A DNA stretch of 64,000 nt from Armillaria gallica. Its lineage: Eukaryota; Basidiomycota; Agaricomycetes; Agaricales; Physalacriaceae. Location: positions 2,232,001-2,296,000 of the forward strand of contig JBANDB010000005.1 in the NCBI GenBank assembly GCA_037576215.1, given 5' to 3'. The notes under the pieces are model-generated. The model ran no database searches. It had not been told where the DNA came from and saw nothing but the letters and a program-made list of their open reading frames with translations. Both the position numbers and the translations under genes were made by a program. Position 1 is the stretch's first letter. Every line of letters begins with the position of its first letter. Below, in pieces: positions 270-39,430 of this stretch.

Positions 270-675
270 GCGCTGTCTGAGATGGCGAGGAGGACAAGGA
301 GGGCTTTGTTTGGCATTGGGATTGACGGCGGTAAGGTCCGGATAGATCCGGGCACGCCATCACCTAGGTAACTCTGCCTTTTACACCAAAATTATCTTCG
401 AATGTCCGTGTACATAATGATCATTGTCAATTGTCCAGTATCCTACGTTCATTTATGGTCCCATGTCCGAATTTTTCGTGGTATAGCTGCCTTCAAAGAG
501 GCAGGGCCGTCAATGGATTTCCATAACGGATTCCTTCAGTGGCAACAATCATTTCTCGTCCATGAATCGAAGAATGAATTCGCCGTTTGACAGTGCAATC
601 ATAGAGTAACGCCACGCTTCAATTTTTTCGGGGGTTCTTATATTTGGCTAAATCCGATGATTGATCTTCACAGGC

Positions 676-1281
676 ATGCCAGGAGCTATGCCTCGGTCAG
701 ACTTGCATCTGATGAGAGGATGGGTCGGCCGGGAGGCTCTGCTGATTGTGGACCTACCAGCTGCTGATTGTCTGAGAATGTCGACTCGGACCGCACTCCC
801 GAGTCCCAATGATTTCGGCCTAGAGGAAACTGATGGAAATGGAGCTGAAAATCTTTCCTTAGATATGTTTCCGTCTGTTGGAAATCAGATTTTGGCGGCG
901 AGAATTCTGTTTCTGGCTGGACGGAAACTGTATAAAGAAAAATTTCAGTGCCACCACACATCTCCTTCGTGCAAAAACTCAGGCATGCCAGGAGTGCCAG
1001 AACCATTCAACCCGTCGGCAGAGTCGATGCTATCAATATCCTGAAATTCGGCCAGAAGAATGGAATACAAAGTGCTAATTCCATTCCTTCAATCTGCGGA
1101 GCACGAAATAGTGGATGGAGGAAGTATCAGAAGAAGGCATATCAGAGTTCCACGCACCCCCGTGACTCCTGGAAATAGTGTGTGCAGCCACTTTCATAGA
1201 TCCAAAATTCTAGAACGAAGCATGGAAGTAACAAGACGGATGGGCACATACCACGTGTTAGACTGGGTTCGCAATACGTAG
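676..1281 (+). pseudogene. Broken copy of the unit's 201-codon open frame
   Basis: Same reading frame as 12832-13437, with ATG at 676, but interrupted here by a TGA at 1042-1044 (TCC CGA in unit 2 reads TCC TGA here). I do not recognise the product. It starts MPGAMPRSDLHLMRG. Antisense and alternative frames are also fairly open, so coding status is doubtful. Confidence 0.3.
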
Positions 1282-1345
1282 GAACGTATACTAGACGGCC
1301 ACGATAAGACGTGTCTTCCCAAACCGCGTATCTAGAGAAATATTA

Positions 1346-1674
1346 CAGCTGTTTGTATACAGCTTGACAATCAAGGGTGTTTTCGTAGAAGATGAAAGGA
1401 AGCTCGGACTTGGTCATAAAGCGTGTTTTGGGGACTTCAAGTGCACGAATTGGTGCGCTTTACGGGAGAGAAGAGAGTGACCTGGACTTGGTCATAAACC
1501 ATGGTTGATGGGCTTGATGACACGTTGGTGGGTGGTTTGGCATGGCTCTTCCAGCGATCTCGGAGGCCATTTCGTGTGCTCGGAGTCCCCAAAACGCGGT
1601 TTATGACCAAGTCCGGGCTTCCTTTCATCATCCGTGAAAACGCCCCTAACTGTCAAGCTGTATGCAAACTGCTG
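1346..1674. mobile_element. MITE-like element A, unit 1 (about 105-bp TIRs, TA flanks)
   Basis: The two ends are long imperfect inverted repeats. The left arm starts CAGCTGTTTGTATACAGCTT and the right arm reads the same inwards as CAGCAGTTTGCATACAGCTT; similarity continues about 105 bp inwards, including a GGACTTGGTCATAAA block in each arm. A TA dinucleotide sits directly outside both ends (1344-1345 and 1675-1676), as expected for Tc1/mariner-type insertion. At about 330 bp with no transposase it is a non-autonomous miniature element. Confidence 0.75.
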
Positions 1675-1733
1675 TAACTGCAGTGTGATCAAGTGAAGCA
1701 ACAAGAACATACTCCGGCATGTTGGCTAGCTTA

Positions 1734-1976
1734 GCTGTTTGCGTACAGCTTGACAGTAATGCGCGAGAGAAGAGAGTGATTGAATATTCAGACTTGGTCA
1801 TAAATCATAGTTTAGGGACTTGATGACACGTTTGTAGCTGGTTTATGGTTTATGGCAGTTTCGGAGGTCCTCTCGTGTGCTTCAAGTCCGCAAAACACGT
1901 TTTATGACCAAGTCAGAACCTTCGTTCATGATCCACGAAAGCACCCCTGACTGTAAACCAGCATGCAAACACATAC
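1734..1976. mobile_element. MITE-like element B, unit 1, related to A
   Basis: About 245 bp with weaker inverted-repeat arms of the same family: GCTGTTTGCGTACAGCTTGA on the left and a matching right arm, with the GTCATAAA block in both. It lies about 60 bp right of element A. The fourth X copy lacks it, reading straight across the site (near 38171-38190), so it inserted in the array lineage or was lost at the parental locus. The ends are less exact than those of A. Confidence 0.6.
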
Positions 1977-2514
1977 AAGGACCTATTACACCGTCGAAAG
2001 CTACCAAGGAGAGATAGATCGTTTCTTAATAGAATTACAGTATTAGAGTGACGTGTGAGTGAGATATCAACGGGATAACTTATAACCTTATTTTGAACGG
2101 CAGCATTCGTCAGAACAAACAGAATTTAGGGATAGTCAAGGATTACGAGCCATTATGGGAACGATTATGGCTTTGATGATTCCGCCTCCTGCTTAATCCG
2201 AGGAAAACAGCGAGCTATAATCATCATTTTCATGATCGAGGTGCTCTGATCCCCCTATTGCCAGAATATGACACCGTTCATGAAACTGAGAGGAACGTGC
2301 CTGGGATATCCGACCAGCCTGATAGTACGAAGTACGAGTAAAGGGAAACGTCTCTCTGCTCGTAAGCTGAGATAAAACCATGCAGAATGTTCTTCTTGGT
2401 GTCTTGGTAGGCCCTGAAGGTGATAGATGGTATTCACAAAAGAATGCTTTTATACGACGAGGGTGGAGATGAAATGACGAGAAATGAATTGCAGCATGGT
2501 AGAGTGTCGACCTA

Positions 2515-2948
2515 TCACCGTCTCTTGGACTCCTTCGACATCTTTTGTCTATGACATACGTAAGATTAGTGCTAATGTGAACATCGTGAAGGACTCACTT
2601 TGTCGGATTGTTCTTCCTCGTGTGCGAGAACTCGCCAAGCTTGTGTCCCACCATGTCCTGCGTCACTAGCACGGGAAGGTACTGTTTGCCGTTATGAACG
2701 AGAAATCGGATCCTGTGTACATGTGTTGGTCATTCATCAGCCTATAGTTCCCAGAAAACTTACCCGACAAAGTTGGGCAGAATTGTGCATGCACGAGCTT
2801 GCGTCTTTATCGCGACATTGCGCTGGGAAGCTTCTTTGAGGTTGGAAAAGGCCACGAAATAAGGACCTAGCATACGCGATCAGCAAGGAAAATACGGGCA
2901 ACCAAGCCAGAATAATTCACCTTTCCACCCTTTGAAGAGGCTAAGCGT
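2515..2948 (-). pseudogene. 5'-truncated mitochondrial uS19 pseudogene, unit 1
   Basis: All four exons and three introns of the intact gene at 39431-39881 can be followed here with GT-AG ends and the same TGA stop. The match ends at codon 4 (ACG). The bases where ATG should be are unrelated and the frame upstream reaches a stop without an ATG. Nine bases encoding Arg-Ser-Ala of the FKGRSAWKG motif are also missing. Introns are kept, so it arose by DNA duplication and not by retroposition. It is probably non-functional unless a fused upstream exon supplies a start. Confidence 0.85.
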
Positions 2949-3226
2949 TGGTGATGTCAGTGGCTGTGCAGATAAGGAGATCGACGATGAAAAGGCCGAT
3001 TTCTCGACGATGGCGAGGGCGATAAGCAAAGAAAGAGCGAAATATGTTTATTGAAGCTACTACTGTACAGGATGTAATGAATAGAAGAGGATCGAAGCGA
3101 AGAAATTTCCCCGAAGAATCACCTAACAAGAAATTAACACGGTTAGGCAACGAAAAAAGCCGTAAGTCAGCAGCCATTCTAGCTCATAGGATCATAATCT
3201 CCCCACCCCGAAGGTATTCGTCAAAA

Positions 3227-3260
3227 GCACAAACGGGAGGCGGCTTCCTCCCGTTTGTGC
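3227..3260. other. Perfect 14-bp stem, 6-nt loop hairpin
   Basis: GCACAAACGGGAGG and its exact complement CCTCCCGTTTGTGC are separated by CGGCTT. A second small hairpin (GAGTCC-CGAA-GGACTC) follows at 3352-3367. No Helitron CTRR terminus lies at the expected distance. Also in units 2 (15400-15433) and 3 (27575-27608). Confidence 0.8.
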
Positions 3261-3561
3261 ACCGGCCAAGCGTAGTCTCCCGTTCAAATCGTTCCAACGG
3301 GAAACCGAGGCTTGCCGTTGTGGGTCCGATTTGCCCAAAAAAAAATAGTACGAGTCCCGAAGGACTCAACCTGCTCTCAGTGTAACCCTAACCCGATGGA
3401 CCGACCTTTCAAGAGACGGCAACGAGCTAGAATATAAGCAAGTCAGCATCTGGCGAAAGAAGACAGAAAAGTCGGCTCACCATCTCAATTCCAAGACACA
3501 CCAAACGAGTCAATCACAAGACGCCGTTGTCCAACCCCGCGTCGCCCTCAACAGACGGCGG

Positions 3562-3738
3562 CTATTTAATCAGCCGCGACGGGTTCGACGGGGTGATCAA
3601 AGGCGTCCGGTGCTTGACTCCCTCATTATCGTCGTCGCCGTCTTGAGGAGAAAGTGATATCTATGCCCGCGCATCAGTCCTTGTCAAAGTGAACAAGGGA
3701 AGGAAACTCACTTCGACTTCAACCGGATCGTCGACATC
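3562..3738 (-). CDS. Candidate 3' exons of a decayed or unresolved minus-strand gene
   Basis: The last exon (3562-3660, 33 codons with TAG) and the preceding 9-codon exon (3712-3738) join in frame across a 51-nt intron (GTGAGT...GCATAG). The peptide begins DVDDPVEVEISL and ends TPSNPSRLIK, acidic then Ser/Pro-rich like many fungal C-termini. Upstream a further intron (3739-3791) is plausible, but the frame then meets a TGA within ten codons, so either the exon model is incomplete or the gene is broken. Function unknown. Same sequence in units 2 (15735-15911) and 3 (27910-28086). Confidence 0.35.
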
Positions 3739-4037
3739 CTGCAGGAAGAGTATCAGCTGCCAAATCAATCACCCTATAGGGGAACACGTACCATCCATCC
3801 CGACCCATCCGCCCATCAAGTCTACCTCCCTCACTTCACCTTGATGCGTCCTTCTCGAAGGCGAACGTTGACTGTGCGTTGGAACGAGTGAACGGATGGC
3901 GCGGGTGCGGGGATCCCTTAGCCCGGGTCTTGTGTGATCGGCGGATCGTCGTTCTTCCCTGTCGAGCGCGGACTTCTCTAACCCTTTGCCCGACTACATT
4001 CCCGGTGATACCTTGTCATCCTCTTCGCATCCCCATG

Positions 4038-5062
4038 CTCGCCGGAGCGCGATACGTCGTCTTACGGCAAAATTCGTTGCCTAGGCAGTTCACCGTGTAA
4101 TAGCGAGCCTGCAGGGACTGTTACAAGTAGATTAGCTAGAGAGACAGGAAAAGAAAACATAGCACGCACGTTCAACAAAGCGGAACGACTCTGAGCCTGC
4201 CGAGCGACCTCCCCAACTCCCCATCTTTGCCAGTGCACCTGCCCTTGCTCGCCGGAACGCGATACGTCGTCTCGCGACAAAACTCGATTGCCCGGAAGTG
4301 CACAGCGTATTATTGAGGCTGCGATATACGTGCTTTTAGCGAAGGCAAAGTCGTCGGAGAACAGCAAAGGGCGGGGGCTGCTTGACTAGATTAGCTAGCG
4401 AGAAATAAGGGACAGTATAAAACTCACGTTCAACGGAGCTGAACTACTCTGAAGCCTCCCGAGTGATCAATGCGCGCAACCTCCCCAACTCCCCGTCTTT
4501 GCCAGTGCACCTGCCCTTGCTCGCCGGAACCCGATACGTCGTCTCGCAGCAAAACTCGAAGCCTTGAGCTTCAGCGTGAGCTTGAGGGCCCAAAGGGTGA
4601 TGCCGTGTGCGGGTTTGGTTGTGAAGGTTCTCTGTTAAACAAAATTAGTTAGTAAAAACCAAGAAAAATGTCAAACCCACTTTGGATGTGCACGGAGTGC
4701 ATGACAGCACTGGCTTTCCTCGCCTTACAATCCCTCTGCAGCAGTATCACCTACTGGTCCATCTCGCCGGAACGCGATACGTTGCGTCGGAGCAAAAATA
4801 GGTCGACATCATGGTCGAGAGATGTTGAGGATACGTCGGGGTGCTTTCCATCACTGAGTCCTAGAGTCAGATAAGAATAGGAACACAGAACAGAAACAGG
4901 ATCGACGTACGGTTAGGGTGGACACTTTCGGTCCGTGTAATCCGTGTGCACGCCCATCGTGCTCCTCCCTCCGCACATCTCCAAGTCCCTCCTACACGTC
5001 CTCCTCCTCGCTGATGCCGCTCGCCGGAAGTCTATACGTCATGTCGGGGCAAAATTCGTCTT
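4038..5062 (-). repeat. Five-fold exon-like repeat encoding FCxxxTYRxPA
   Basis: A block of about 40 bp (plus strand starting CTCGCCGGAACGCGATACGT) recurs at 4038, 4248, 4520, 4763 and 5020, spaced 210-272 bp. On the minus strand all five read in one frame as FC-x-x-x-TYR-x-PA. The Arg codon is CGC, CGG or AGA and the Cys codon TGT or TGC, so several differences are silent. Introns with branch sites lie between the repeats (for example GTGAGT...CTAATCTAG near 4384-4424 and GTGGGT...TTTAACAG near 4632-4681). I could not assemble one continuous frame. Copies in units 2 (16212-17236) and 3 (28387-29411). Confidence 0.55.
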
Positions 5063-7200
5063 ATACAGCCATTGCAGGAGCGACTGAGCTGCCTGGGAAT
5101 GATGTGGGAGTGAAGGCCAGAGTAGGGAAGAGGAAATTTCGAGGGAGGGAGACGTCGAAATGAATTGGTAGTGGAATGGCTTCTTGAGGTTCCTTCAGCC
5201 ACAGAAACATCCAATAGGAATGCGGAACCCACCACTAATCAAATCAAAACCAATCCACCACAAAACGCACCCTTTGCACGCGAATACGCTTCGTTGATGG
5301 CCGAGAACCGAGTTGTCCATGGAATACGCCAATCGAGCGTGCGCCAAATATTGACGTCCTACCAGAGTCAGAACAAAATTCAGCAAATTCGATAAGATGA
5401 AGATAGAAAGAAGAACCTACGCAAACAAAAGGTAGATATCGAGGAACGAGAGAACAAGAGAGTGGGAGACGGAAGGAAAGCACAAGAGAGCTGGCCGTGC
5501 CAAACACGACACCGTTGCCAAACATCCCGTTTTGAGCATTCAACGCCCATCACGACGTGACAACGACGCGTCCCCGATGCAACACACCATCACGAAGGGG
5601 CAAATAGATGGTGAACATCCCTACTGTACACATCAGTATACACAGGATGTGCGACAGTCTAGAATAATGGCAGCATGGGGGTAAGAAAGGAGGATATCCG
5701 ATCACTCAATTTCTGATGCTTATATACCTTCGCAGATCGGTTTCACGGTCCGTAACTTGTAAGATCAACAAAAAATAATTTTATGGAAGAACTGATCTTC
5801 CATGTCTAGGCTCTGTATCCCTTGCCAACCCACAGCATGTGCATCAATCCGAATACTTTCTTCGGATATTCCTCTGCCACCTGTCATAATTTCAGGGCCT
5901 TCCAGGGGCGCAGGAAGGCTCATATGAGCGCTCCTATGCTTCTGGAATGTACTCAAACTATGGCATCTACTCACATTCATTTCCGTGTGATGAGCAACTT
6001 TGTAAACTTCTCTTACATTCAACTGCCAACACTTCAAGTATTCCAAGGCTTCAAAGTATCTAATGACTGCGGAGTGAATTTGAGTTGGAACCAATGTATA
6101 TTATGAGGTATGTATGATACAAATTAAGTTACAAGGTTGCCATGATGCCCTAAGAATAAGTACTCCATCCTGCACATGCACATGCACATTCTTCGGGTCC
6201 TTGCATCATCATGTGGCCACACTAATCTATTTGTGAGCAATTTGAAGCAGCGATTATCTGCCGATATTGCAGAATTGCGATGATCAGGCACTAGGGCAGT
6301 TGCCCAAGCGCATCCGGCTGGGATGCCGTACAGTTGCAACTGAAGCTGTCCTCAAGGGACAGCTCAGCGAGTCCTATACAATCATATAGCCGGTAAATAT
6401 GCATCATGTTTCAGGGCTACTTACTTGCATGACACAGGGCTGGACTGCGTGCCGTGCACTCAAAGCCACCCGCTGAAAGAGTATCTGTAGAATGTGAATT
6501 TGGTATCTTTGGACCAACAATGAGTATGTCTACTTCTGCTCACGAAGTCAGAAACGCGCTTACATTGGTGTTATGCTACTCATAATCCAGCGAGAGCCAT
6601 TCGACGGCAACGGTATATCAAGTTCCGATTATGACCTCATTCTTAAAAGATTAACCTGTCCCACATGGACAGCCAACAAGAATACCTACTGGGGCCGGGC
6701 CTCATGAAAAGCGATTATATATTCACTCCGTGGAATGAATGTTCCAAATTTCAAGGGGATTGCCCTGATACTTGGTGAGTCGTCATTGGTTCAATATTCC
6801 ATAAATCCTTACCGTAGAACGTGGATACGGCTAGACACCTACGCCGCCGCGTCAACAAATGAAGATCGAGTGTGTACGGTGTGCCTAGAATGTTCCTGAA
6901 TCATTCCAGCGATCGCAACCGTCTGAAAATCGGAACCCTTTCTCGTAAGAGTTCCATCCAGCTCAAAAAGAATACTCACTAGCACCGAGTCTAAGCGACG
7001 TTACAACAGGCTTTCAGTATATCAGCTTGCTCGATAGCAAATAGATGGTTGAGTACCCTACAGTGAGTTTCCTTCGGATTAGATACAACTCATCATGAAT
7101 GAAAGCCTGCGTTGAGGTAGGTACGAAGGCTAGACAATGTCGCCATCTATTCATAGAAAGGGTCGTAAAGGTGTCCCTAGTTCCTGAATTATTCGGGTGA
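5063..7200. other. Array Y segment with no resolved gene
   Basis: Several partly open frames occur on both strands. On the minus strand an ATG at 5550 can be joined across a GTAGGT...TGGTAG intron to a frame ending at 5195, giving about 97 residues, but nothing recognisable. Around 5765-6340 the minus strand contains protein-like runs and a GTGAGT donor near 5978. I regard this as decayed coding sequence or noise. Repeated in units 2 and 3. Confidence 0.4.
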
Positions 7201-7515
7201 TCAAATCGACTTGAAAATCGGAAACCTTGGTGATATGTCCATGCTACGCATGGCTTCGACGTCCTTACATGACCGCAGTGAGAGATATTGCTAGCAGCCC
7301 GGTAAATGTATGTTCATGGATTTCAGAGAGTATTTACTCACAACTCTGTATGTAGGACCAGATTCAGAGTCCACAGACAACTCTGCCGTCTTCTCGGCGC
7401 GCGCAATGCCTACGTCTTTGTGTGAGAAATCGATGAGAGGGTCGCACCAGCAACCGGTTAAGCACGTCACTCGGGTGGGTCGGGAACGGGCATACGGCAC
7501 TATTATCGGGGTCAT
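7201..7515 (-). CDS. Candidate two-exon 87-aa protein
   Basis: ATG at 7513-7515. Exon 1 runs to 7342, a 51-nt intron (GTGAGT...GCTAG, 7291-7341) follows, and exon 2 ends at TGA 7201-7203; both exons are a whole number of codons. The peptide begins MTPIIVPYARSRP and has a Cys-rich CLTGCWC stretch, with no signal peptide or membrane segment. No family recognised. The splice signals are good but the branch site is weak. Copies in units 2 (19377-19691) and 3 (31551-31865). It may be a fragment of a larger decayed gene. Confidence 0.3.
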
Positions 7516-9787
7516 GGTTAGTATATTTTCCCTTCTTCCACATCATGATCAGCCCTAGTTTAAACGAGTTCGATCCAGACGGCTCCACCGCTACCTGTAT
7601 TCGCCATGCGAACTCATGCGAGTCGGGAAATAATACCGTCAGCGTAGTTAAGGCGATGAATTTCCCATTTGATTTGTATGGAAGGTAAAGGTTTCATAAT
7701 TCGGTTCATATACTAACCGCGCTCACCTCTGATCAAGACAACGGCGCAAGCGTCGGCTCCGCCGTCGCCTCTAACTTACAATGGCGCGGGTCAGACGTCC
7801 TCGAGTTCGGGTTTTGAAGTGAGAAGGTGGTATCACGCCGATGCGATACATAGTTTAGATACATATTGCATGCACAATAGTAAAATACAAATGTCCTGCA
7901 CTGTATGAGCACTCGATATTCACGAGAATGGAAATGAACACGAACCAAAGTACGGACGTCGATTGGCGGGCTACCCGCCTCAATCTGAATCCTTTCACAA
8001 CGAGTCCTATCAGAAATCCTGCGAAACATCAAATGTCCGTCATCGAGATCGTCGATGTTTAAACATCCCGCGGGAAACGGCCTACTCCTCGTATCTTACA
8101 AAAGACATCTATAGGACCGTGCGTCAGTGAAACGGGGAAGCACAACTAGGTCTTCGTACCACGATGCTCGATCGACATAAGTAAATTGAATACGGTTCCG
8201 TTAGAATACAGGTGCCTGCGCCGCATCAGCACTTATCATACACCAGGATAGCAACGACCACGTACCAATTCACTTGTACGAGTTCTGATTACCTTTGCGC
8301 CCTCGATAAATCACTCAAATATTCGAATAAGATCTCCTACGTGTTATCGAAGGAATGTTAGTGCGATGATGATACCCAAACTAAACATTTAGCCGTTGTT
8401 CGATGTCCAAGGTCTTTCAACACAACGTATTCCTAGAGAACGTCAGCTGAGATAGCACAAACCTACGAAATTACCACCTTATCCCTTAAATATCCGTTGC
8501 TGATGCTTTCCAAGGGAAGAAGATAACAGTCAAATATCACTTTAAAGCTTGAAGACCCAATTTCGTGGTAGTCCAATACCTCACGGAGCTTGAACGTCGG
8601 AAAACACGCGAGTCAAGAATCGAACGAGTAACATGATGGTGGTAGTGAACAAAAGAGGAAGTTGCCGGTTCCGTCAACTCCCAAAGAGGAATCACCTCGG
8701 TTTCCTTCTTACCACTTCCTCCAATCCGTGAATTTCGTTCTTTCACAATTCTGTTTCGCGTATTCACTCCCCCAGCTTTGCTGGATTTCCATATTTTGAC
8801 TATATACAGCCTTTGTTCAATCTAAACTGCGTGATGATACGCTTTTCGCTACTCTCAGTGTACGGGAAAGGATCTGAATCGACAACGGACGGCTCTGGGT
8901 GCTCGTTCGGACCCTGCACAACGCGTCCTGCATTAATGAGATCCTTCGGACCGGGTCACCGCGGCCCCAGATCATGACGTCGCGCGTCAGCCCTGAACTT
9001 GGAAAGGAGCTTCACTATCCATTCGTGAGTTATCCTTCGTACCGCATGAAAGGACTTTTATTTTGATGTAGAATCAATTATCAGCCTAGATGAGGTCTAC
9101 GATACGCTTCCAGACGTTCAGGGAAGACCGTAATCCTGTTTGAGGTCCAGAGTTTATCCAGGTGGTACGTTCTCCAGCGTTTGTATATCATTACCGAAGC
9201 TTACGATCACCAAAAATATAGTAACATGTGTTGTTTGTATTAATGCAACTACGACGACGAGGCCCAGATGGCTTACTCGCGGCCTAACCGGTTGAAGATT
9301 GCAACAGAAGCATTCCCGTCGTAAGTCCCAAATATCCGTATTTCAAAGTTCTCATAGTCGTGTGCTTTGAAGATGGCCCTGGTACGTGATCAGGGTCGCG
9401 GGGTAACCGGGCTCCCACCCTGTGCCTGCCACCAAACCAACCTGAAAGTCGGAACTCTCCCCAGTGCGTACTTTGTGTTTTCCGTGTTTCTGTAACGAGC
9501 TTAATGTTTCTGTTGGTCATAGTAAAGTTCTGCGTAGAGGGGAGGGCGGGACCAGAGTCTAATATTTTCAAGCATGTCGAGATATCGACTTGTCTGTAAC
9601 ATCGGGAGCACTACGCTCGAAGCAACACGGGTAACTCATTCCGGCTTTGCAATCTGTTTTTGAGATCTTCCAAATTTCGGCCGTCGCAAATTCTAATGTC
9701 CGGTATTCGCGTGCCTTGTCATCAATCAGCATGGTCTATCCGTGTACTGCCTGGGCTCTAGACCGATGCGAATGCTTTAAATACGAG
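7516..9787. other. Array Y segment, no gene recognised
   Basis: No frame here has both a good start and supporting splice signals. Notable points are the adjoining palindromes at 8054-8074 and a GGCGGG-CTA-CCCGCC inverted repeat at 7965-7979. The A/T-rich spacers and lack of codon structure suggest non-coding or decayed DNA. Confidence 0.4.
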
Positions 9788-11945
9788 GTATGTTATCCCT
9801 TTCTATCCATCATCCCATTCATCCCTACTTTCCCTCCCTTCTCTAGCATCTCCCCTCTTCTCCTTCTCTCAGCCGATTTCTTTCACTATCTTCTCGTTGT
9901 CGAGCACGTTCTCGGCGGGTCTCCCGCCGTCGTACGCCTCCTCGTCCATTTCTTCTACCTCGATGATTTGGTCTCGTGACCGCCATCATTTCCTTTTTGG
10001 CCTCGTTTGTTGATTTTCATCTTCACTTCGACCTCAACCACGACGACGTCGTCAAGCTCGACGTCGACAACAGTGAGTTCTGTTTTATTTTTCCGTGTTC
10101 TATTCCATTCTGACGTCGCGTAGACTGTCGCTAATGCCCACGATGATTGCTTTAACCGTGGTGGACGCGTCAAACGGACGAAGGCTTGGCTAGTCAATAT
10201 TTTACTCGATGCAGGTAAGCCTCTTGTGTAAAGCTATCACGCCTTTATCTCTTACTCTTATCTTCGTCGTTAGTCTCTATTAATGGTAAGCTATTGTACT
10301 ACCCTCGGTTCCCGCCTCTACTAAGTAATGTTTGCCCTAGCTGGTTCCAACTGGTATTGCTGCAGCCGCACGCCAGGTAAGTCCTTGATGCTCTATAAAC
10401 CTCTCGCAAGCTCACTGTTTTTTTTCCTGTCGCTCCACAGCAAGTAGCATTTCCCTTCGACGACGGCCGCATTCGGATTTGCAACGCGCACCATGATGCC
10501 AACCGATAGAGGCAAGATTCCTCGAATGCACACGGCGATGGTTAGGTGTCGACGTCGCATCGTTACGATGCTGGAGGGTGGTCGATAAGGACTCGCGGAC
10601 TGAAGGGACTAACTATGGTGAGCCATGATTTTTGTTGTTCTTTTGACTGCTTCTGACGCGTCTCTTTTTCAGCTCATTGATACGTACACCAGGTTGAGGA
10701 CACACGGTAAGAGATTCGTTTATTGTCGGGACGGAGCAAGCTAACGCTAGCAATAGAACACTCGTCTATTGGAACCGCCGACCGCCAAACCGAGCACCGA
10801 GCACCACACCACACGAATACTGTACACGATGGTGGATTCATGCTTGGTCCCTTTTACTGGGAAGGTACGCTGGTGTAACTAAGGCAAAGTGGCCTCTTTC
10901 GACTAACCGATGTCGTAAGGTGTCGAGAATCCCTCAAGCTTCGTGTCCGAATCAGAACAGAACAGGTATGTAGACCTTTTTCCTTTGATTTTGCAACAGC
11001 TCACGCGTCGTTTGTCATTATAGGATCCAATAGTGAATATCGACGTGACGACAATCGGCCAGCAGCGGCACAGGTGCCTCGTGCTATGATGGAGATGGCG
11101 TTGGTCAGACGGTACGCTGGTGTGATGAGGGAATGGCGGGATCTGGCTGACAGATGTGTATCAACTCTTGAGGTTGGGATCGAGGGTTGTGTCGGCACAG
11201 ACGCTCCGCGGAATCCGGTATGTCTACCTTGTTCTACCACCTTTCCTGCTACTAAGCTGCCGCTCTTAGGGGATGGGCTGCAAGCATGCGCTATCTACCC
11301 CTTCTCTTCTACTCGCTGGCCGACTATTCCCTCAGACGATGGGTGTTTGAACATCGTTCCGAGTGCCAGTCTAAACACGAGGCGGCGGCGCCGTCGTCAA
11401 CTTGCTCGGAATCAGGACCGAGGGGGTAGGCTTGCAGGGGATGCGAGGAGAATGTCATTCTGTTGTGCCAAGACTTGAGAGCGAGTCGTCGGTACGTAGC
11501 TTTCTCCTAATCTTTATTCGCTAGCTAAACATATGTGTTAGGGTCTCGCCGGAAGGGACGCAGTAGTTGGTGAGGGCAGCACGGTGGGGTAGTGACCGCA
11601 GGATAGGCTTAGAGGTGTACTAGGTATGTTGACGCGAGCGCTTAGTTTGAAGCGGAACTGACGGTGTTCACGCAGATATTAATTCATGTAACAATGTGAA
11701 AAGGTGTGTCCTATTCGCTGACTCTATCTGCTCTTACTAACGAGCTGTACAGATATATATGATGTTACAACAGTTCTCAACGCGGAATGATAAGAGAGGG
11801 ATTGTAAGGACGGCGCTGATCTAGCAACCGCGGGTCAAAACTAGACTGGTCGCGGAGGACCAGTCCTTCGAATAGACACCTACGCGGATAAGGTAAGCTT
11901 GCGATTGGACGAAATTTGAAGGTCGACTAACGATTTACCTTTCAG
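9788..11945 (+). other. Intron-dense plus-strand transcription unit without an intact frame, unit 1
   Basis: About 14 intron-like blocks follow one another on the plus strand: 9788-9872, 10073-10123, 10215-10273, 10286-10340, 10377-10440, 10618-10672, 10707-10756, 10865-10919, 10966-11023, 11218-11269, 11492-11541, 11624-11675, 11704-11752 and 11893-11945. Most are 49-64 nt with GTAAG/GTATG/GTGAG donors, branch sites such as TACTAAC or GACTAAC, and CAG/TAG acceptors. They leave short exons, one of only 12 nt (10274-10285). Open runs cross several junctions: one from 10124 through 10214, the 12-nt exon, 10341-10376 and into 10441; another from 10673 through 10920-10965. No single frame survives end to end. 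It is either a spliced non-coding RNA or a decayed multi-exon gene. Confidence 0.5.
11844..11865. other. 8-bp stem hairpin near the end of the intron-dense unit
   Basis: GACTGGTC-GCGGAG-GACCAGTC, a perfect stem with a 6-nt loop. It sits between the last two introns of the candidate transcription unit. Its role is unknown. Confidence 0.5.
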
Positions 11946-12200
11946 TTTGCTTTCTGCAAAGGGCATGGCAGTTGCAGAGGGAGGGGATATGGACGGAGGG
12001 CAGCACTGAAAGTCGACGCGTGCGCGGAGGGGATGAGAGAGTGCGGGAAATATGCGCGCGGAGGGGATGTGTGCGGATGGGCGTTTGTGGAGGGAGGCGT
12101 GCGCGGAAGGGAGGGACGTCGACGGGGGCAAGCTATTATTAGACTGGATGGAGGGATGAGGGAGGTAGGGTGTTATTTATAGACGGCGGAGGGAGGTAGG

Positions 12201-13437: not shown

Positions 13438-13501
13438 GAACGTATACTAGACGGCCACGATAAGACGTGTCTTCCCAAACCGCGTATCTAGAGAAATATT
13501 A

Positions 13502-25611: not shown

Positions 25612-25675
25612 GAACGTATACTAGACGGCCACGATAAGACGTGTCTTCCCAAACCGCGTATCTAGAGAAATATTA

Positions 25676-26307: not shown

Positions 26308-26862
26308 CAAGGACCTAGTACACCGTCGGAAGCTACCAAGGAGAGATGGATCGTTTCTTAATAGAATTACAGTATTAGAGTGACCGTGTGAGTGAGATAT
26401 CAACGGGATAACTTATAACCTTATTTTGAACGGCAGCATTCGTCAGAACAAACAGAATTTAGGGATAGTCAAGGATTACGAGCCATTATGGGAACGATTA
26501 TGGCCTCCTGCTTAATCCGAGAAAAACAGCGGGCTATAGTCATCATTTTCATGATCGAGGTGCTCTGATCCCCCTATTGCCAGAGTATGACACCGTCTCA
26601 ATCCCAGCCAGTGCTGCTGCTGGTATCATGAAACTGAGAGGAACGTGCCTGGGATATCCGACCAGCCTGATAGTACGAAGTACGAGTAAAGGGAAACGTC
26701 TCTCTGCTCGTAAGCTGAGATAAAACCATGCAGAATGTTCTTCTTGGTGTCTTGGTAGGCCCTGAAGGTGATAGATGGTATTCACAAAAGAATGCTTTTA
26801 TACGACGAGGGTGGAGATGAAATGACGAGAAATGAATTGCAGCATGGTAGAGTGTCGACCTA

Positions 26863-27296
26863 TCACCGTCTCTTGGACTCCTTCGACATCTTTTGTCTAT
26901 GACATACGTAAGATTAGTGTTAATGTGAACATCACAAAGATCTCACTTTGTCGGATTGTTCTTCCTCGTGTGCGAGAACTCGCCAAGCTTGTGTCCCACC
27001 ATGTCCTGCGTCACTAGCACGGGAAGGTACTGTTTGCCGTTATGAACGAGAAATCGGATCCTGTGTACATGTGTTGGTCCTTCATCAGCCTATAGTCCCC
27101 AGAAAACTTACCCGACAAAGTTGGGCAGAATCGTGCATGCACGAGCTTGCGTCTTTATCGCGACATTGCGCTGGGAAGCTTCTTTGAGGTTGGAAAAGGC
27201 CACGAAATAAGGACCTAGCATACGCGATCAGCAAGGAAAATACGGGCAACCAAGCCAGAATAATTCACCTTTCCACCCTTTGAAGAGGCTAAGCGT
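26863..27296 (-). pseudogene. 5'-truncated mitochondrial uS19 pseudogene, unit 3
   Basis: Same structure and same breakpoint as 2515-2948. Confidence 0.85.
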
Positions 27297-30200
27297 TGGT
27301 GATGTCAGTGGCTGTGCAGATAAGGAGATCGACGATGAAAAGGCCAATTTCTCGACGATGGCGAGGGCGATAAGCAAAGAAAGAGCGAAATATGTTTATT
27401 GAAGCTACTACTGTACAGGATGTAATGAATAGAAGAGGATCGAAGCGAAGAAATTTCCCCGAAGAATCACCTAACAAGAAATTAACACGGTTAGGCAACG
27501 AAAAAAGCCGTAAGTCAGCAGCCATTCTAGCTCATAGGATCATAATCTCCCCACCCCGAAGGTATTCGTCAAAAGCACAAACGGGAGGCGGCTTCCTCCC
27601 GTTTGTGCACCGGCCAAGCGTAGTCTCCCGTTCAAATCGTTCCAACGGGAAACCGAGGCTTGCCGTTGTGGGTCCGATTTGCCCAAAAAAAAATAGTACG
27701 AGTCCCGAAGGACTCAACCTGCTCTCAGTGTAACCCTAACCCGATGGACCTACCTTTCAAGAGACGGCAACGAGCTAGAATATAAGCAAGTCAGCATCTG
27801 GCGAAAGAAGACAGAAAAGTCGGCTCACCATCTCAATTCCAAGACACACCAAACGAGTCAATCACAAGACGCCGTTGTCCAACCCCGCGTCGCCCTCAAC
27901 AGACGGCGGCTATTTAATCAGCCGCGACGGGTTCGACGGGGGTGATCAAAGGCGTCCGGTGCTTGACTCCCTCATTATCGTCGTCGCCGTCTTGAGGAGA
28001 AAGTGATATCTATGCCCGCGCATCAGTCCTTGTCAAAGTGAACAAGGGAAGGAAACTCACTTCGACTTCAACCGGATCGTCGACATCCTGCAGGAAGAGT
28101 ATCAGCTGCCAAATCAATCACCCTATAGGGGAACACGTACCATCCATCCCGACCCATCCGCCCATCAAGTCTACCTCCCTCACTTCACCTTGATGCGTCC
28201 TTCTCGAAGGCGAACGTTGACTGTGCGTTGGAACGAGTGAACGGATGGCGCGGGTGCGGGGATCCCTTAGCCCGGGTCTTGTGTGATCGGCGGATCGTCG
28301 TTCTTCCCTGTCGAGCGCGGACTTCTCTAACCCTTTGCCCGACTACATTCCCGGTGATACCTTGTCATCCTCTTCGCATCCCCATGCTCGCCGGAGCGCG
28401 ATACGTCGTCTTACGGCAAAATTCGTTGCCTAGGCAGTTCACCGTGTAATAGCGAGCCTGCAGGGACTGTTACAAGTAGATTAGCTAGAGAGACAGGAAA
28501 AGAAAACATAGCACGCACGTTCAACAAAGCGGAACGACTCTGAGCCTGCCGAGCGACCTCCCCAACTCCCCATCTTTGCCAGTGCACCTGCCCTTGCTCG
28601 CCGGAACGCGATACGTCGTCTCGCGACAAAACTCGATTGCCCGGAAGTGCACAGCGTATTATTGAGGCTGCGATATACGTGCTTTTAGCGAAGGCAAAGT
28701 CGTCGGAGAACAGCAAAGGGCGGGGGCTGCTTGACTAGATTAGCTAGTGAGAAATAAGGGACAGTATAAAACTCACGTTCAACGGAGCTGAACTACTCTG
28801 AAGCCTCCCGAGTGATCAATGCGCGCAACCTCCCCAACTCCCCGTCTTTGCCAGTGCACCTGCCCTTGCTCGCCGGAACCCGATACGTCGTCTCGCGGCA
28901 AAACTCGAAGCCTTGAGCTTCAGCGTGAGCTTGAGGGCCCAAAGGGTGATGCCGTGTGCGGGTTTGGTTGTGAAGGTTCTCTGTTAAACAAAATTAGTTA
29001 GTAAAAACCAAGAAAAATGTCAAACCCACTTTGGATGTGCACGGAGTGCATGACAGCACTGGCTTTCCTCGCCTTACAATCCCTCTGCAGCAGTATCACC
29101 TACTGGTCCATCTCGCCGGAACGCGATACGTTGCGTCGGAGCAAAAATAGGTCGACATCATGGTCGAGAGATGTTGAGGATACGTCGGGGTGCTTTCCAT
29201 CACTGAGTCCTAGAGTCAGATAAGAATAGGAACACAGAACAGAAACAGGATCGACGTACGGTTAGGGTGGACACTTTCGGTCCGTGTAATCCGTGTGCAC
29301 GCCCATCGTGCTCCTCCCTCCGCACATCTCCAAGTCCCTCCTACACGTCCTCCTCCTCGCTGATGCCGCTCGCCGGAAGTCTATACGTCATGTCGGGGCA
29401 AAATTCGTCTTATACAGCCATTGCAGGAGCGACTGAGCTGCCTGGGAATGATGTGGGAGTGAAGGCCAGAGTAGGGAAGAGGAAATTTCGAGGGAGGGAG
29501 ACGTCGAAATGAATTGGTAGTGGAATGGCTTCTTGAGGTTCCTTCAGCCACAGAAACATCCAATAGGAATGCGGAACCCACCACTAATCAAATCAAAACC
29601 AATCCACCACAAAACGCACCCTTTGCACGCGAATACGCTTCGTTGATGGCTGAGAACCGAGTTGTCCATGGAATACGCCAATCGAGCGTGCGCCGAATAT
29701 TGACGTCCTACCAGAGTCAGAACAAAATTCAGCAAATTCGATAAGATGAAGATAGAAAGAAGAACCTACGCAAACAAAAGGTAGATATCGAGGAACGAGA
29801 GAACAAGAGAGTGGGAGACGGAAGGAAAGCACAAGAGAGCTGGCCGTGCCAAACACGACACCGTTGCCAAACATCCCGTTTTGAGCATTCAACGCCCATC
29901 ACGACGCGACAACGACGCGTCCCCGATGCAACACACCATCACGAAGGGGCAAATAGATGGTGAACATCCCTACTGTACACATCAGTATACACAGGATGTG
30001 CGACAGTCTAGAATAATGGCAGCATGGGGGTAAGAAAGGAGGATATCCGATCACTCAATTTCTGATGCTTATATACCTTCGCAGATCGGTTTCACGGTCC
30101 GTAACTTGTAAGATCAACAAAAAATAATTTTATGGAAGAACTGATCTTCCATGTCTAGGCTCTGTATCCCTTGCCAACCCACAGCATGCGCATCAATCCA

Positions 30201-33200
30201 AATACTTTCTTCGGATATTCCTCTGCCACCTGTCATAATTTCAGGGCCTTCCAGGGGCGCAGGAAGGCTCATATGAGCGCTCCTATGCTTCTGGAATGTA
30301 CTCAAACTATGGCATCTACTCACATTCATTTCCGTGTGATGAGCAACTTTGTAAACTTCTCTTACATTCAACTGCCAACACTTCAAGTATTCCAAGGCTT
30401 CAAAGTATCTAATGACTGCGGAGTGAATTTGAGTTGGAACCAATGTATATTATGAGGTATGTATGATACAAATTAAGTTACAAGGTTGCCATGATGCCCT
30501 AAGAATAAGTACTCCATCCTGCACATGCACATGCACATTCTTCGGGTCCTTGCATCATCACGTGGCCACACTAATCTATTTGTGAGCAATTTGAAGCAGC
30601 GATTATCTGCCGATATTGCAGAATTGCGATGATCAGGCACTAGGCCGCAGTTGCCCAAGCGCATCCGGCTGGGATGCCATACAGTTGCAACTGAAGCTGT
30701 CCTCAAGGGACAGCTCAGCGAGTCCTATACAATCATATAGCCGGTAAATATGCATCATGTTTCAGGGCTACTTACTTGCATGACACAGGGCTGGACTGCG
30801 TGCCTGCACTCAAAGCCACCCGCTGAAAGAGTATCTGTAGAATGTGAATTTGGTATCTTTGGACCAACAATGAGTATGTCTACTTCTGCTCACGAAGTCA
30901 GAAACGCGCTTACATTGGTGTTATGCTACTCATAATCCAGCGAGAGCCATTCGACGGCAACGGTATATCAAGTTCCGATTATGACCTCATTCTTAAAAGA
31001 TTAACCTGTCCCACATGGACAGCCAACAAGAATACCTACTGGGGCCGGGCCTCATGAAAAGCGATTATATATTCACTCCGTGGAATGAATGTTCCAAATT
31101 TCAAGGGGATTGCCCTGATACTTGGTGAGTCGCCATTGGTTCAATATTCCATAAATCCTTACCGTAGAACGTGGATACGGCTAGACACCTACGCCGCCGC
31201 GTCAACAAATGAAGATCGAGTGTGTACGGTGTGCCTAGAATGTTCCTGAATCATTCCAGCGATCGCAACCGTCTGAAAATCGGAACCCTTTCTCGTAAGA
31301 GTTCCATCCAGCTCAAAAAGAATACTCACTAGCACCGAGTCTAAGCGACGTTACAACAGGCTTTCAGTATATCAGCTTGCTCGATAGCAATTAGATGGTT
31401 GAGTACCCTACAGTGAGTTTCCTTCGGATTAGATACAACTCATCATGAATGAAAGCCTGCGTTGAGGTAGGTACGAAGGCTAGACAATGTCGCCATCTAT
31501 TCATAGAAAGGGTCGTAAAGGTGTCCCTAGTTCCTGAATTATTCGGGTGATCAAATCGACTTGAAAATCGGAAACCTTGGTGATATGTCCATGCTACGCA
31601 TGGCTTCGACGTCCTTACATGACCGCAGTGAGAGATATTGCTAGCAGCCCGGTAAATGTATGTTCATGGATTTCAGAGAGTATTTACTCACAACTCTGTA
31701 TGTAGGACCAGATTCAGAGTCCACAGACAACTCTGCCGTCTTCTCGGCGCGCGCAATGCCTACGTCTTTGTGTGAGAAATCGATGAGAGGGTCGCACCAG
31801 CAACCGGTTAAGCACGTCACTCGGGTGGGTCGGGAACGGGCATACGGCACTATTATCGGGGTCATGGTTAGTATATTTTCCCTTCTTCCACATCATGATC
31901 AGCCCTAGTTTAAACGAGTTCGATCCAGACGGCTCCACCGCTACCTGTATTCGCCATGCGAACTCATGCGAGTCGGGAAATAATACCGTCAGCGTAGTTA
32001 AGGCGATGAATTTCCCATTTGATTTGTATGGAAGGTAAAGGTTTCATAATTCGGTTCATATACTAACCGCGCTCACCTCTGATCAAGACAACGGCGCAAG
32101 CGTCGGCTCCGCCGTCGCCTCTAACTTACAATGGCGCGGGTCAGACGTCCTCGAGTTCGGGTTTTGAAGTGAGAAGGTGGTATCACGCCGATGCGATACA
32201 TAGTTTAGATACATATTGCATGCACAATAGTAAAATACAAATGTCCTGCACTGTATGAGCACTCGATATTCACGAGAATGGAAATGAACACGAACCAAAG
32301 TACGGACGTCGATTGGCGGGCTACCCGCCTCAATCTGAATCCTTTCACAACGAGTCCTATCAGAAATCCTGCGAAACATCAAATGTCCGTCATCGAGATC
32401 GTCGATGTTTAAACATCCCGCGGGAAACGGCCTACTCCTCGTATCTTACAAAAGACATCTATAGGACCATGCGTCAGTGAAACGGGGAAGCACAACTAGG
32501 TCTTCGTACCACGATGCTCGATCGACATAAGTAAATTGAATACGGTTCCGTTAGAATACAGGTGCCTGCGCCGCATCAGCACTTATCATACACCAGGATA
32601 GCAACGACCACGTACCAATTCACTTGTACGAGTTCTGATTACCTTTGCGCCCTCGATAAATCACTCAAATATTCGAATAAGATCTCCTACGTGTTATCGA
32701 AGGAATGTTAGTGCGATGATGATACCCAAACTAAACATTTAGCCGTTGTTCGATGTCCAAGGTCTTTCAACACAACGTATTCCTAGAGAACGTCAGCTGA
32801 GATAGCACAAACCTACGAAATTACCACCTTATCCCTTAAATATCCGTTGCTGATGCTTTCCAAGGGAAGAAGATAACAGTCAAATATCACTTTAAAGCTT
32901 GAAGACCCAATTTCGTGGTAGTCCAATACCTCACGGAGCTTGAACGTCGGAAAACACGCGAGTCAAGAATCGAACGAGTAACATGATGGTGGTAGTGAAC
33001 AAAAGAGGAAGTTGCCGGTTCCGTCAACTCCCAAAGAGGAATCACCTCGGTTTCCTTCTTACCACTTCCTCCAATCCGTGAATTTCGTTCTTTCACAATT
33101 CTGTTTCGCGTATTCACTCCCCAGCTTTGCTGGATTTCCATATTTTGACTATATACAGCCTTTGTTCAATCTAAACTGCGTGATGATACGCTTTTCGCTA

Positions 33201-34136
33201 CTCTCAGTGTACGGGAAAGGATCTGAATCGACAACGGACGGCTCTGGGTGCTCGTTCGGACCCTGCACAACGCGTCCTGCATTAATGAGATCCTTCGGAC
33301 CGGGTCACCGCGGCCCCAGATCATGACGTCGCGCGTCAGCCCTGAACTTGGAAAGGAGCTTCACTATCCATTCGTGAGTTATCCTTCGTACCGCATGAAA
33401 GGACTTTTATTTTGATGTAGAATCAATTATCAGCCTAGATGAGGTCTACGATACGCTTCCAGACGTTCAGGGAAGACCGTAATCCTGTTTGAGGTCCAGA
33501 GTTTATCCAGGTGGTACGTTCTCCAGCGTTTGTATATCATTACCGAAGCTTACGATCACCAAAAATATAGTAACATGTGTTGTTTGTATTAATGCAACTA
33601 CGACGACGAGGCCCAGATGGCTTACTCGCGGCCTAACCGGTTGAAGATTGCAACAGAAGCATTCCCGTCGTAAGTCCCAAATATCCGTATTTCAAAGTTC
33701 TCATAGTCGTGTGCTTTGAAGATGGCCCTGGTACGTGATCAGGGTCGCGGGGTAACCGGGCTCCCACCCTGTGCCTGCCACCAAACCAACCTGAAAGTCG
33801 GAACTCTCCCCAGTGCGTACTTTGTGTTTTCCGTGTTTCTGTAACGAGCTTAATGTTTCTGTTGGTCATAGTAAAGTTCTGCGTAGAGGGGAGGGCGGGA
33901 CCAGAGTCTAATATTTTCAAGCATGTCGAGATATCGACTTGTCTGTAACATCGGGAGCACTACGCTCGAAGCAACACGGGTAACTCATTCCGGCTTTGCA
34001 ATCTGTTTTTGAGATCTTCCAAATTTCGGCCGTCGCAAATTCTAATGTCCGGTATTCGCGTGCCTTGTCATCAATCAGCATGGTCTATCCGTGTACTGCC
34101 TGGGCTCTAGACCGATGCGAATGCTTTAAATACGAG

Positions 34137-36294
34137 GTATGTTATCCCTTTCTATCCATCATCCCATTCATCCCTACTTTCCCTCCCTTCTCTAGCATCT
34201 CCCCTCTTCTCCTTCTCTCAGCCGATTTCTTTCACTATCTTCTCGTTGTCGAGCACGTTCTCGGCGGGTCTCCCGCCGTCGTACGCCTCCTCGTCCATTT
34301 CTTCTACCTCGATGATTTGGTCTCGTGACCGCCATCATTTCCTTTTTGGCCTCGTTTGTTGATTTTCATCTTCACTTCGACCTCAACCACGACGACGTCG
34401 TCAAGCTCGACGTCGACAACAGTGAGTTCTGTTTTATTTTTCCGTGTTCTATTCCATTCTGACGTCGCGTAGACTGTCGCTAATGCCCACGATGATTGCT
34501 TTAACCGTGGTGGACGCGTCAAACGGACGAAGGCTTGGCTAGTCAATATTTTACTCGATGCAGGTAAGCCTCTTGTGTAAAGCTATCACGCCTTTATCTC
34601 TTACTCTTATCTTCGTCGTTAGTCTCTATTAATGGTAAGCTATTGTACTACCCTCGGTTCCCGCCTCTACTAAGTAATGTTTGCCCTAGCTGGTTCCAAC
34701 TGGTATTGCTGCAGCCGCACGCCAGGTAAGTCCTTGATGCTCTATAAACCTCTCGCAAGCTCACTGTTTTTTTTCCTGTCGCTCCACAGCAAGTAGCATT
34801 TCCCTTCGACGACGGCCGCATTCGGATTTGCAACGCGCACCATGATGCCAACCGATAGAGGCAAGATTCCTCGAATGCACACGGCGATGGTTAGGTGTCG
34901 ACGTCGCATCGTTACGATGCTGGAGGGTGGTCGATAAGGACTCGCGGACTGAAGGGACTAACTATGGTGAGCCATGATTTTTGTTGTTCTTTTGACTGCT
35001 TCTGACGCGTCTCTTTTTCAGCTCATTGATACGTACACCAGGTTGAGGACACACGGTAAGAGATTCGTTTATTGTCGGGACGGAGCAAGCTAACGCTAGC
35101 AATAGAACACTCGTCTATTGGAACCGCCGACCGCCAAACCGAGCACCGAGCACCACACCACACGAATACTGTACACGATGGTGGATTCATGCTTGGTCCC
35201 TTTTACTGGGAAGGTACGCTGGTGTAACTAAGGCAAAGTGGCCTCTTTCGACTAACCGATGTCGTAAGGTGTCGAGAATCCCTCAAGCTTCGTGTCCGAA
35301 TCAGAACAGAACAGGTATGTAGACCTTTTTCCTTTGATTTTGCAACAGCTCACGCGTCGTTTGTCATTATAGGATCCAATAGTGAATATCGACGTGACGA
35401 CAATCGGCCAGCAGCGGCACAGGTGCCTCGTGCTATGATGGAGATGGCGTTGGTCAGACGGTACGCTGGTGTGATGAGGGAATGGCGGGATCTGGCTGAC
35501 AGATGTGTATCAACTCTTGAGGTTGGGATCGAGGGTTGTGTCGGCACAGACGCTCCGCGGAATCCGGTATGTCTACCTTGTTCTACCACCTTTCCTGCTA
35601 CTAAGCTGCCGCTCTTAGGGGATGGGCTGCAAGCATGCGCTATCTACCCCTTCTCTTCTACTCGCTGGCCGACTATTCCCTCAGACGATGGGTGTTTGAA
35701 CATCGTTCCGAGTGCCAGTCTAAACACGAGGCGGCGGCGCCGTCGTCAACTTGCTCGGAATCAGGACCGAGGGGGTAGGCTTGCAGGGGATGCGAGGAGA
35801 ATGTCATTCTGTTGTGCCAAGACTTGAGAGCGAGTCGTCGGTACGTAGCTTTCTCCTAATCTTTATTCGCTAGCTAAACATATGTGTTAGGGTCTCGCCG
35901 GAAGGGACGCAGTAGTTGGTGAGGGCAGCACGGTGGGGTAGTGACCGCAGGATAGGCTTAGAGGTGTACTAGGTATGTTGACGCGAGCGCTTAGTTTGAA
36001 GCGGAACTGACGGTGTTCACGCAGATATTAATTCATGTAACAATGTGAAAAGGTGTGTCCTATTCGCTGACTCTATCTGCTCTTACTAACGAGCTGTACA
36101 GATATATATGATGTTACAACAGTTCTCAACGCGGAATGATAAGAGAGGGATTGTAAGGACGGCGCTGATCTAGCAACCGCGGGTCAAAACTAGACTGGTC
36201 GCGGAGGACCAGTCCTTCGAATAGACACCTACGCGGATAAGGTAAGCTTGCGATTGGACGAAATTTGAAGGTCGACTAACGATTTACCTTTCAG
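34137..36294 (+). other. Intron-dense plus-strand unit, unit 3 copy
   Basis: Same exon/intron pattern as 9788-11945, shifted by 24349 bp; splice sites unchanged. Confidence 0.5.
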
Positions 36295-37180
36295 TTTGCT
36301 TTCTGCAAAGGGCATGGCAGTTGCAGAGGGAGGGGATATGGACGGAGGGCAGCACTGAAAGTCGACGCGTGCGCGGAGGGGATGAGAGAGTGCGGGAAAT
36401 ATGCGCGCGGAGGGGATGTGTGCGGATGGGCGTTTGTGGAGGGAGGCGTGCGCGGAAGGGAGGGACGTCGACGGGGGCAAGCTATTATTAGACTGGATGG
36501 AGGGATGAGGGAGGTAGGGTGTTATTTATAGACGGCGGAGGGAGGTAGGGACGGACGATTTCCTGCAGGAAGGGAGGTCGACGCCTTTTTGGCGGGAGTT
36601 CATAGGGACAGGCCATTTCGTGCAGGAAGGAGGGTCGACGGGTTTTTGGCGGGAGGTTATAGAGACGGCCGTTTTCACGGAAGGCGCATCGGAATGCGGA
36701 AGCGGGTTGGACGAGGGAGAAAGCGACTCGGACAAGGGTTTGGGAGGGACTCGGAGTGTAGGGTCGCGTCAGTGACGGGAGCGCTGTCTGAGATGGCGAG
36801 GAGGATAAGGAGGGCTTTGGCATTGGGATCGACGGCGGTAAGGTCCGCGTAGATCCGCGCACGCCTCACCTAGGTAACTCTGCCTTTACACCAAAATTAT
36901 CTTCGAGCGTCCGTGTACATAATGATCATTGTCAATTGTCCAGTATTCTACGTTCATTGATGGCCCCATGTCCGATTTTTTCGTAGTATAGCTGCCTTCA
37001 AAGAGGCGGGGCCGTCAATGGATTCCCATAACGGATCCCTTCAGTGGCAACAATCATTTCTCTTCCATGAATCGAAGAATGAATTCACCGTTTGACAGTG
37101 CAATCATAGAGTAATGCCACGCTTCAATTTTTTCGAGGGTTCTTATATTTGGCTAAATCCGATGATTGATCTTCACAGGC

Positions 37181-37615
37181 ATGCCAGGAGCTATGCCTCG
37201 GTCAGACTTGCATCTGATGAGAGGATGGGTCGGCCGGGAGGCTCTGCTGGTTGTGGATCTACCAGCTGCTGATTGTTTGAGAATGTCGACTCGGACCGCA
37301 CTCCCGAGTCCCAATGATTTCGGCCTAGAGGAAACTGATGGAAATGGAGCTGAAAATGTTTCCTTAGATATGTTTCCGTCTGTTGGAAATCAGATTTTGG
37401 CGGCGAGAATTCTGTTTCTGGCTGGACGGAAACTGTATAAAGAAAAATTTTCAGTGCCACCACACATCTCCTTCGTGCAAAAACTCAGGCATGCCAGGAG
37501 TGCCAGAACCATTCAACCCGTCGGCAGAGTCGATGCTATCAATATCCCGAAATTCGGCCAGAAGAATGGAGTACAGTACTATTTCCATTCTTTCAATCTG
37601 CGGAGCACGAAATAG
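37181..37615 (+). pseudogene. Frameshifted copy of the unit open frame at the array edge
   Basis: It follows the 12832-13437 frame to about codon 88, then an extra A in the A-run near 37445 moves it into a different frame that ends at TAG 37613-37615. This is also where identity to the array starts to fall. Confidence 0.3.
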
Positions 37616-39400: not shown

Positions 39401-39430
39401 TGAGTTGCAGCATGGTAGAGTGTCGACCAG

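Follow-up and report, generated by a model that had tools for sequence, protein, structure and literature searches.

Unequal crossing-over between direct repeats yields tandem segmental duplications, of which the CUP1 locus of yeast and the globin genes are familiar examples. Here we describe a tandem array in Armillaria gallica, located in a stretch of 64,000 nucleotides (positions 2232001-2296000 of contig JBANDB010000005.1, referred to as C5; the stretch is called the window below) of an 86.05-Mb assembly in 28 contigs. Each unit of the array combines a remnant of RSM19, the nuclear gene for the mitochondrial ribosomal protein uS19m, with a large non-coding repeat. We propose, with a probability of roughly 0.7, that unequal homologous exchange in the flank of the MAT-B mating-type locus gave rise to the array, as a tandem segmental amplification. 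Like the CUP1 and globin arrays it has near-identical head-to-tail units, a diverged edge and a mosaic with a mapped exchange boundary; unlike them, its unit is mostly non-coding repeat plus a gene copy without a start codon, and it sits in a mating-type flank.

Flammulina velutipes belongs to the same family as Armillaria. Its matB also contains STE3 receptor and pheromone genes, but CLA4 is not linked to matB3 according to the accessible part of the report (PMC3140503), whereas a PAK/CLA4-type kinase gene lies near STE3 in the present genome. For Trichaptum, the available text of the MATB study names PAK, RSM19, DML1, RIC1 and SNF2 as flank genes (PMC8970355). PAK, RSM19 and DML1 are likewise found here, on the same chromosome stretch as STE3, albeit in a different layout from the one given in those portions of the Trichaptum paper: MATB there measures 30.3 kb, compared to about 109 kb from PAK to the furthest STE3 in A. 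gallica, where RIC1 is on another contig and the PAK-RSM19 interval appears to be filled by the array. Mating-type regions enlarged by repeats are also found among the matA and matB haplotypes of Pleurotus ostreatus, with the difference that extra genes and transposon proteins are inserted there, as far as the accessible sections go (PMC13108863), instead of a tandem array with a flank-gene remnant. The literature searched, including the available parts of PMC8970355, PMC3140503, PMC13108863, PMC8686365 and PMC12470553, contained no RSM19 duplication and no tandem array in a MAT-B flank, which is no proof that none has been published.

The tandem array and its RSM19 copies

Self-BLAST and unit alignment resolved three head-to-tail units followed by a partial fourth (Table 1). 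The periods of 12162, 12174 and 12175 are those of the tandem triplication reported in the original prediction, which had been made from the sequence alone. Across 12,173 aligned bases, units 2 and 3 are distinguished by 11 single-nucleotide variants (SNVs) and 3 indels (0.1%), in agreement with the dozen or so differences noted there, and this small number supports the idea of a very recent expansion and/or homogenisation. They align in register with a longest exact match of 3,973 bases, so that chance is no issue. Unit 1 differs by 58 SNVs and 12 indels from unit 2 (12,139 aligned bases), and by 69 SNVs and 11 indels from unit 3 (12,140 aligned bases). These differences are spread unevenly, since 55 of the 58 SNVs against unit 2 fall in the left 2.7 kb of unit 1, with 28/793 (3.5%) in its left part (L) and 26/1863 (1.4%) in the part carrying RSM19 (R), whereas the right part of about 9.5 kb (9,477 bases) has only 3 SNVs against unit 2 and 14 against unit 3. 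The description of the array as near-perfect is therefore apt for units 2 and 3 throughout and for the right part of unit 1, but not for its left 2.7 kb.

The relationships among the units change along the alignment. In columns 1-2715 no SNVs separate units 2 and 3, each being 55 SNVs away from unit 1, while in columns 5067-12198 units 1 and 2 are free of SNVs relative to each other and each is 10 SNVs away from unit 3. Unit 3 has 12 private differences (11 SNVs and 1 indel), and 10 of these SNVs lie in the latter columns. Near-identical copies of the unit were found at this locus only, among the 40 candidates scored in each genome similarity search. An array of rDNA or tRNA genes is rejected, as the unit contains neither kind of gene and gave no Rfam match at the gathering threshold, and the prediction had rightly set rDNA aside.

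Short open reading frames are no sign of a gene-less unit here, because introns of 50-54 bases interrupt RSM19. A genome search for the uS19 family gave seven matches, namely one per unit, two exon pieces in a complete gene to the right of the array (RSM19-B) and two pieces on contig C9, which we take to be the cytosolic homologue; the C9 pieces apart, the matches are confined to this locus. The predicted RSM19-B protein is 100% identical to Armillaria borealis cluster P0001. A second A. borealis form (P0002), with RST replacing RSA, is found on a 24-kb contig; two forms thus exist in that species, which is compatible with alleles as well as with paralogues. The unit copies, referred to as A, have retained their splice sites and stop codon, and exons 2-4 are open. 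Exon 1 lacks the ATG and three codons (RSA), and the frame contains no ATG from the closest stop upstream as far as exon 1. Because the start codon is missing in each of them, the unit copies are probably non-functional, and RSM19-B probably supplies the protein.

Comparison of the coding sequences of A and B gave 12-13 synonymous changes over 57 sites (about 0.22 per site) and one non-synonymous change over 192 sites, and their introns differ at 26 of 154 bases. Coding differences between the unit copies and B include a T/S codon in exon 4 and the missing RSA codons. This pattern of substitutions implies that the A/B divergence is old and was shaped by purifying selection, which acted on both copies for most of that time. 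The combination in A of a maintained frame and a lost start could reflect either a late loss that accompanied the arrival of the repeat, or an origin of A and B as alleles of different MAT-B haplotypes.

The homology between A and B extends beyond the gene, as the left 2.7 kb of each unit (270-2951 in unit 1) is homologous to 36781-39875. The array had been predicted to end at 37575, and this coincides with a real and sharp boundary, array-type sequence ceasing between 37571 and 37578 (boundary 1). Only 2 SNVs in 793 bases separate unit 2 from B to the left of the equivalent unit 1 positions 1065-1074, compared to 92 in 932 to the right. The 932 aligned bases are those of positions 1074-1335 and 2278-2951; the stretches left out contain copies resembling miniature inverted-repeat transposable elements (MITEs) or align poorly, and they are more strongly diverged (unit 1 against B, 80/328 and 62/288). 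The same step is seen when unit 1 is compared to B, from 26/793 (3.3%) to 92/932 (9.9%) (Fisher p 3e-8), which indicates that an array-type left part and a B-type right part were brought together at this point. Three sites (941, 962 and 1143) contradict the boundary, as expected of changes special to units 2 and 3. The opposite arrangement, in which units 2 and 3 would be hybrids of a B-type left and an A-type right part, is weakened by the step in unit 1, and the left part of B is more likely to have been derived from array-type sequence.

A second and weaker boundary lies inside unit 2, in columns 3354-5067. Differences found only in unit 1 number 65 to its left and 3 to its right, as against 0 and 12 for differences found only in unit 3 (two indels specific to unit 2 are left out of these counts). 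The contrast derives mostly from the left edge of unit 1.

Table 1. Coordinates in the window of the array, the RSM19 copies and associated features
Feature	Position	Strand	Basis or remark
Unit 1 of tandem array	270-12431		self-BLAST, unit alignment
Unit 2 (left resembles unit 3, right resembles unit 1)	12432-24605
Unit 3	24606-36780
Partial fourth unit (left part L of the unit)	36781-37574		2 SNVs in 793 bases against unit 2
RSM19 copy, unit 1	2515-2948	minus	exons 2-4 open; ATG and RSA codons absent from exon 1
RSM19 copy, unit 2	14688-15121	minus	defects as in unit 1
RSM19 copy, unit 3	26863-27296	minus	defects as in unit 1
RSM19-B, complete uS19m gene	39431-39881	minus	profile search and translation
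RSM19-B exons 1 to 4	39836-39881; 39680-39782; 39515-39628; 39431-39464	minus
B-type diverged homologue of unit positions 1070-2951	37575-39875		about 10% diverged
Exchange boundary 1 (array-type left, B-type right, about 10% diverged)	37571-37578		equivalent to 1065/1074 in unit 1 and 13221/13230 in unit 2
Interval holding exchange boundary 2 in unit 2 (unit 3-like left, unit 1-like right)	15763-17475		weak within the repeat alone
Large non-coding interspersed repeat, unit 1	2952-12431		left end near 2952-2960, right end near 12390-12431
Large repeat, units 2 and 3	about 15125-24605; 27300-36780
CLA4/PAK-type kinase gene, 5' end	1-98	minus	first base of start codon 98; extends to about C5:2229483
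Short multi-copy element, MITE-like	793-1000		also in the other units and the partial fourth unit
MITE-like hairpin element	1340-1680		many genome copies
Separate MITE-like copy in B	37842-38110		100% identical to C3:660940-661208 over 269 bases

Genes around the array

A CLA4/PAK-type kinase gene (open reading frame MAYNMTATSL...) has its start codon 172 bp from the beginning of the array, and its PBD and kinase domains are encoded in further exons. Three matches to STE3 pheromone receptors (C5:2317336-2318351, 2327353-2328427 and 2337159-2338237) were found on the other side, 45 kb from the array, and two of the three were rescanned with Pfam. Stops inside some of these stretches may represent either introns or decay. 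A DML1-domain match is present at C5:2149k, 83 kb from the array. From this gene content we take the array to fill the PAK-RSM19 interval of the MAT-B flank. About 0.56 kb from the third STE3 there is a CaaX-ended, precursor-like reading frame (MDSF...GYCVVA), picked by the motif of pheromone precursors. Of the two receptor loci examined, one (L049) had one such frame in 3.4 kb and the other (L048) had none; as a control, 24.1 kb of the window contained one, of unlike sequence, and shuffled sequence gave a mean of 0.2 per 24.1 kb (20 shuffles).

Other STE3-like matches, at C5:3.94 Mb, C2:4.30 Mb and C1:3.48 Mb, are probably not of mating-type nature. The gene MIP, encoding an M3-family peptidase, marks MAT-A, and a linkage of the array to MAT-A through this gene was unsupported, as contigs C6 and C10 carry the M3-peptidase matches. 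A partial PAK-like copy (L026, C5:2227829-2228806) occurs beside the full PAK gene, some 3.2 kb beyond the left end of the window. It gave three matches to the first half of PBD (two of them rescanned), and a scan of four frames there revealed no kinase domain. PAK and RSM19, the two genes between which the array lies, thus both have extra partial copies.

Two further genes were noted in the window. Multi-exon frames of a PDR-type ABC transporter (ABC_trans_N, ABC2_membrane and PDR_CDR domains; 52468-57537, minus strand) are placed between RSM19-B and the pheromone receptors. A gene for a MYND-type protein (43069-45166, plus strand) shows 59% identity to a Guyanagaster protein. The closest named matches of its 43069-43743 part are from Guyanagaster and Desarmillaria (58-64%), none of the 66 listed being named Armillaria, and it is perhaps a lineage-specific or decaying copy.

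The large repeat and small elements

The right-hand 9.5 kb or so of the unit has relatives both on other chromosomes and on C5, which match in blocks of about 68-89% identity. Gapped relatives extending to both ends of the repeat occur at C5:2167-2177k and C7:2375-2384k, partial ones at C4:6277-6288k and C6:4306-4312k, and many shorter matches are limited to the left 650 bases. The relative on C5 (2167681-2176721, minus strand) lies between DML1 and PAK, about 55 kb to the left of the window.

In line with the prediction that intact transposon genes are lacking, no transposase, helicase, reverse transcriptase or other transposon domain was detected in the 124 stop-to-stop frames scanned around unit 2, out of 132 listed with at least 50 residues, and the sole Pfam match there (mono-CXXC, E 0.0042) was not credited. 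Among 66 of the 113 listed frames of five relative loci only Copia-type domains were encountered, i.e. Pol_BBD and gag_pre-integrase in one frame of locus L027, located between two repeat-matching blocks as an insert would be, and RVT_2 in two members of the set. Substitution counts by codon position against the relatives showed no consistent three-base rhythm, as judged by eye, and none of 12 inverted-repeat pairs links the two ends of the repeat. KDZ transposons are known from mushrooms, and KDZ transposase has at least 169 matches in this genome (150 of 233 candidates scored). The repeat was not assigned to this group, as no KDZ match was listed in the array or in the fetched stretches of its relatives. 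The full identity of the MITE-like copy in B to one on C3 suggests recent movement of that family.

Origin of the array and its meaning

The array would have originated from an interval between PAK and RSM19 that existed in two old copies in direct orientation, A and B, the latter with the complete gene; these came to flank the 9.5-kb repeat. A misaligned exchange between A and B, and later exchange between units, would have produced the combination of RSM19 remnant and repeat three times over, and exchange would also have homogenised the array except at its left edge. The configuration on which this depends is present, as diverged direct repeats flank the repeat element and A and B are copies able to misalign. 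The diverged copies A and B, together with the mapped boundary, go a long way towards explaining the amplification, the reason for which the prediction had left open; the earlier reading had missed the RSM19 part, the setting in a MAT-B flank between PAK and RSM19, the older copy B and the recombination mosaics. We infer that crossovers, and not conversion alone, drove the expansion in the order given, and the array is presumably passive rather than selected.

Several observations weigh against this proposal. The copy number is that of the assembly, and the third unit might have been created by following one path in the assembly graph a second time. The uneven divergence of unit 1 (3.5% in L, 1.4% in the RSM19 part and 14/9477, or 0.15%, in the repeat against unit 3) is at odds with a single crossover, which predicts one value; poor homogenisation at the edge, or exchange between homologues, would yield such a gradient. 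Within the repeat alone, boundary 2 is reduced to a contrast of 3/3 against 0/12 (Fisher p 0.025), with a cut that was picked post hoc. Moreover, RIC1 is unlinked here, with a single match on C6, and CLA4 is unlinked to matB in Flammulina in the available text of PMC3140503; the order of flank genes differs among mushrooms.

An unequal crossover in a two-unit array predicts that unit 2 is a mosaic, and a walk through an assembly graph predicts the same. The true locus might accordingly consist of unit 1, one array-type unit and B, with a near-identical loop having been walked once too often by the assembler. Units 2 and 3 are indeed only 0.1% apart, the mosaic would follow from a walk through their shared stretch, and about 750 bases lie between the distinguishing sites that border the switch (columns 4313 and 5067). 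Nevertheless, we consider a partial artefact of this kind unlikely, since unit 3 has its private differences, and looping one sequence cannot yield a left part of unit 1 and a B boundary that are 2-10% distinct. Since the left part of unit 1, units 2-3 and B differ from each other to that extent, B and no fewer than two units are probably real. Rolling-circle replication of a Helitron-like element that had captured RSM19, or another transposon-driven concatemer, would also bring a dispersed repeat and a gene fragment together in head-to-tail copies, but is very improbable. Among the 40 candidates scored, the RSM19-bearing stretch (2278-2951) matched the three units and B only, the left part of the unit is PAK-RSM19 intergenic region, and neither the frames scanned around unit 2 (124 of 132 listed) nor those of the relatives (66 of 113 listed; Copia-type domains only) nor the inverted-repeat pairs, 0 of 12 of which bridge the repeat ends, point to such an element.

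Mating-type flanks may be diverged, and A and B, as well as unit 1 and units 2-3, might accordingly be alleles of two MAT-B-linked haplotypes, joined either by exchange between homologues, in which case the array is real, or by the assembler as a false duplication. Purifying selection on both A and B, even though A lacks a start, is what would be expected had each been the sole gene of its haplotype, and the P0002 form of A. borealis fits the same picture. However, what precedes units 2 and 3 and the partial fourth unit is the repeat and not PAK sequence, and simple concatenation of haplotigs does not give these junctions; an old duplication followed by loss of the 5' end of A explains the same data, and the accessible part of the Trichaptum study detected no signal of balancing selection for RSM19 (PMC8970355). 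On balance we judge this fusion of haplotypes to be rather improbable. A more far-reaching version, which we regard as slightly more doubtful still, is that the array records exchange between long-diverged MAT-B haplotypes, in which A and B were once RSM19 alleles and an ectopic tandem joining cut off the start of A; the array would now form a recombination-prone or recombination-blocking edge, with a length that differs between mating types.

If unequal homologous exchange within the flank is the correct explanation, then an ordinary mechanism has operated at a noteworthy location, in the flank of a mating-type locus in a mushroom. Reduced recombination is often discussed for mating-type regions, as for Pleurotus in the available portions of PMC13108863. 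What appeared to be an unexplained satellite-like array would become a record of ectopic recombination beside such a locus. One complete and three start-less RSM19 copies provide simple markers of exchange in the MAT-B flank, in the form of the unit number and the junction between 37571 and 37578, and these may be used across crosses, clones and sister species.

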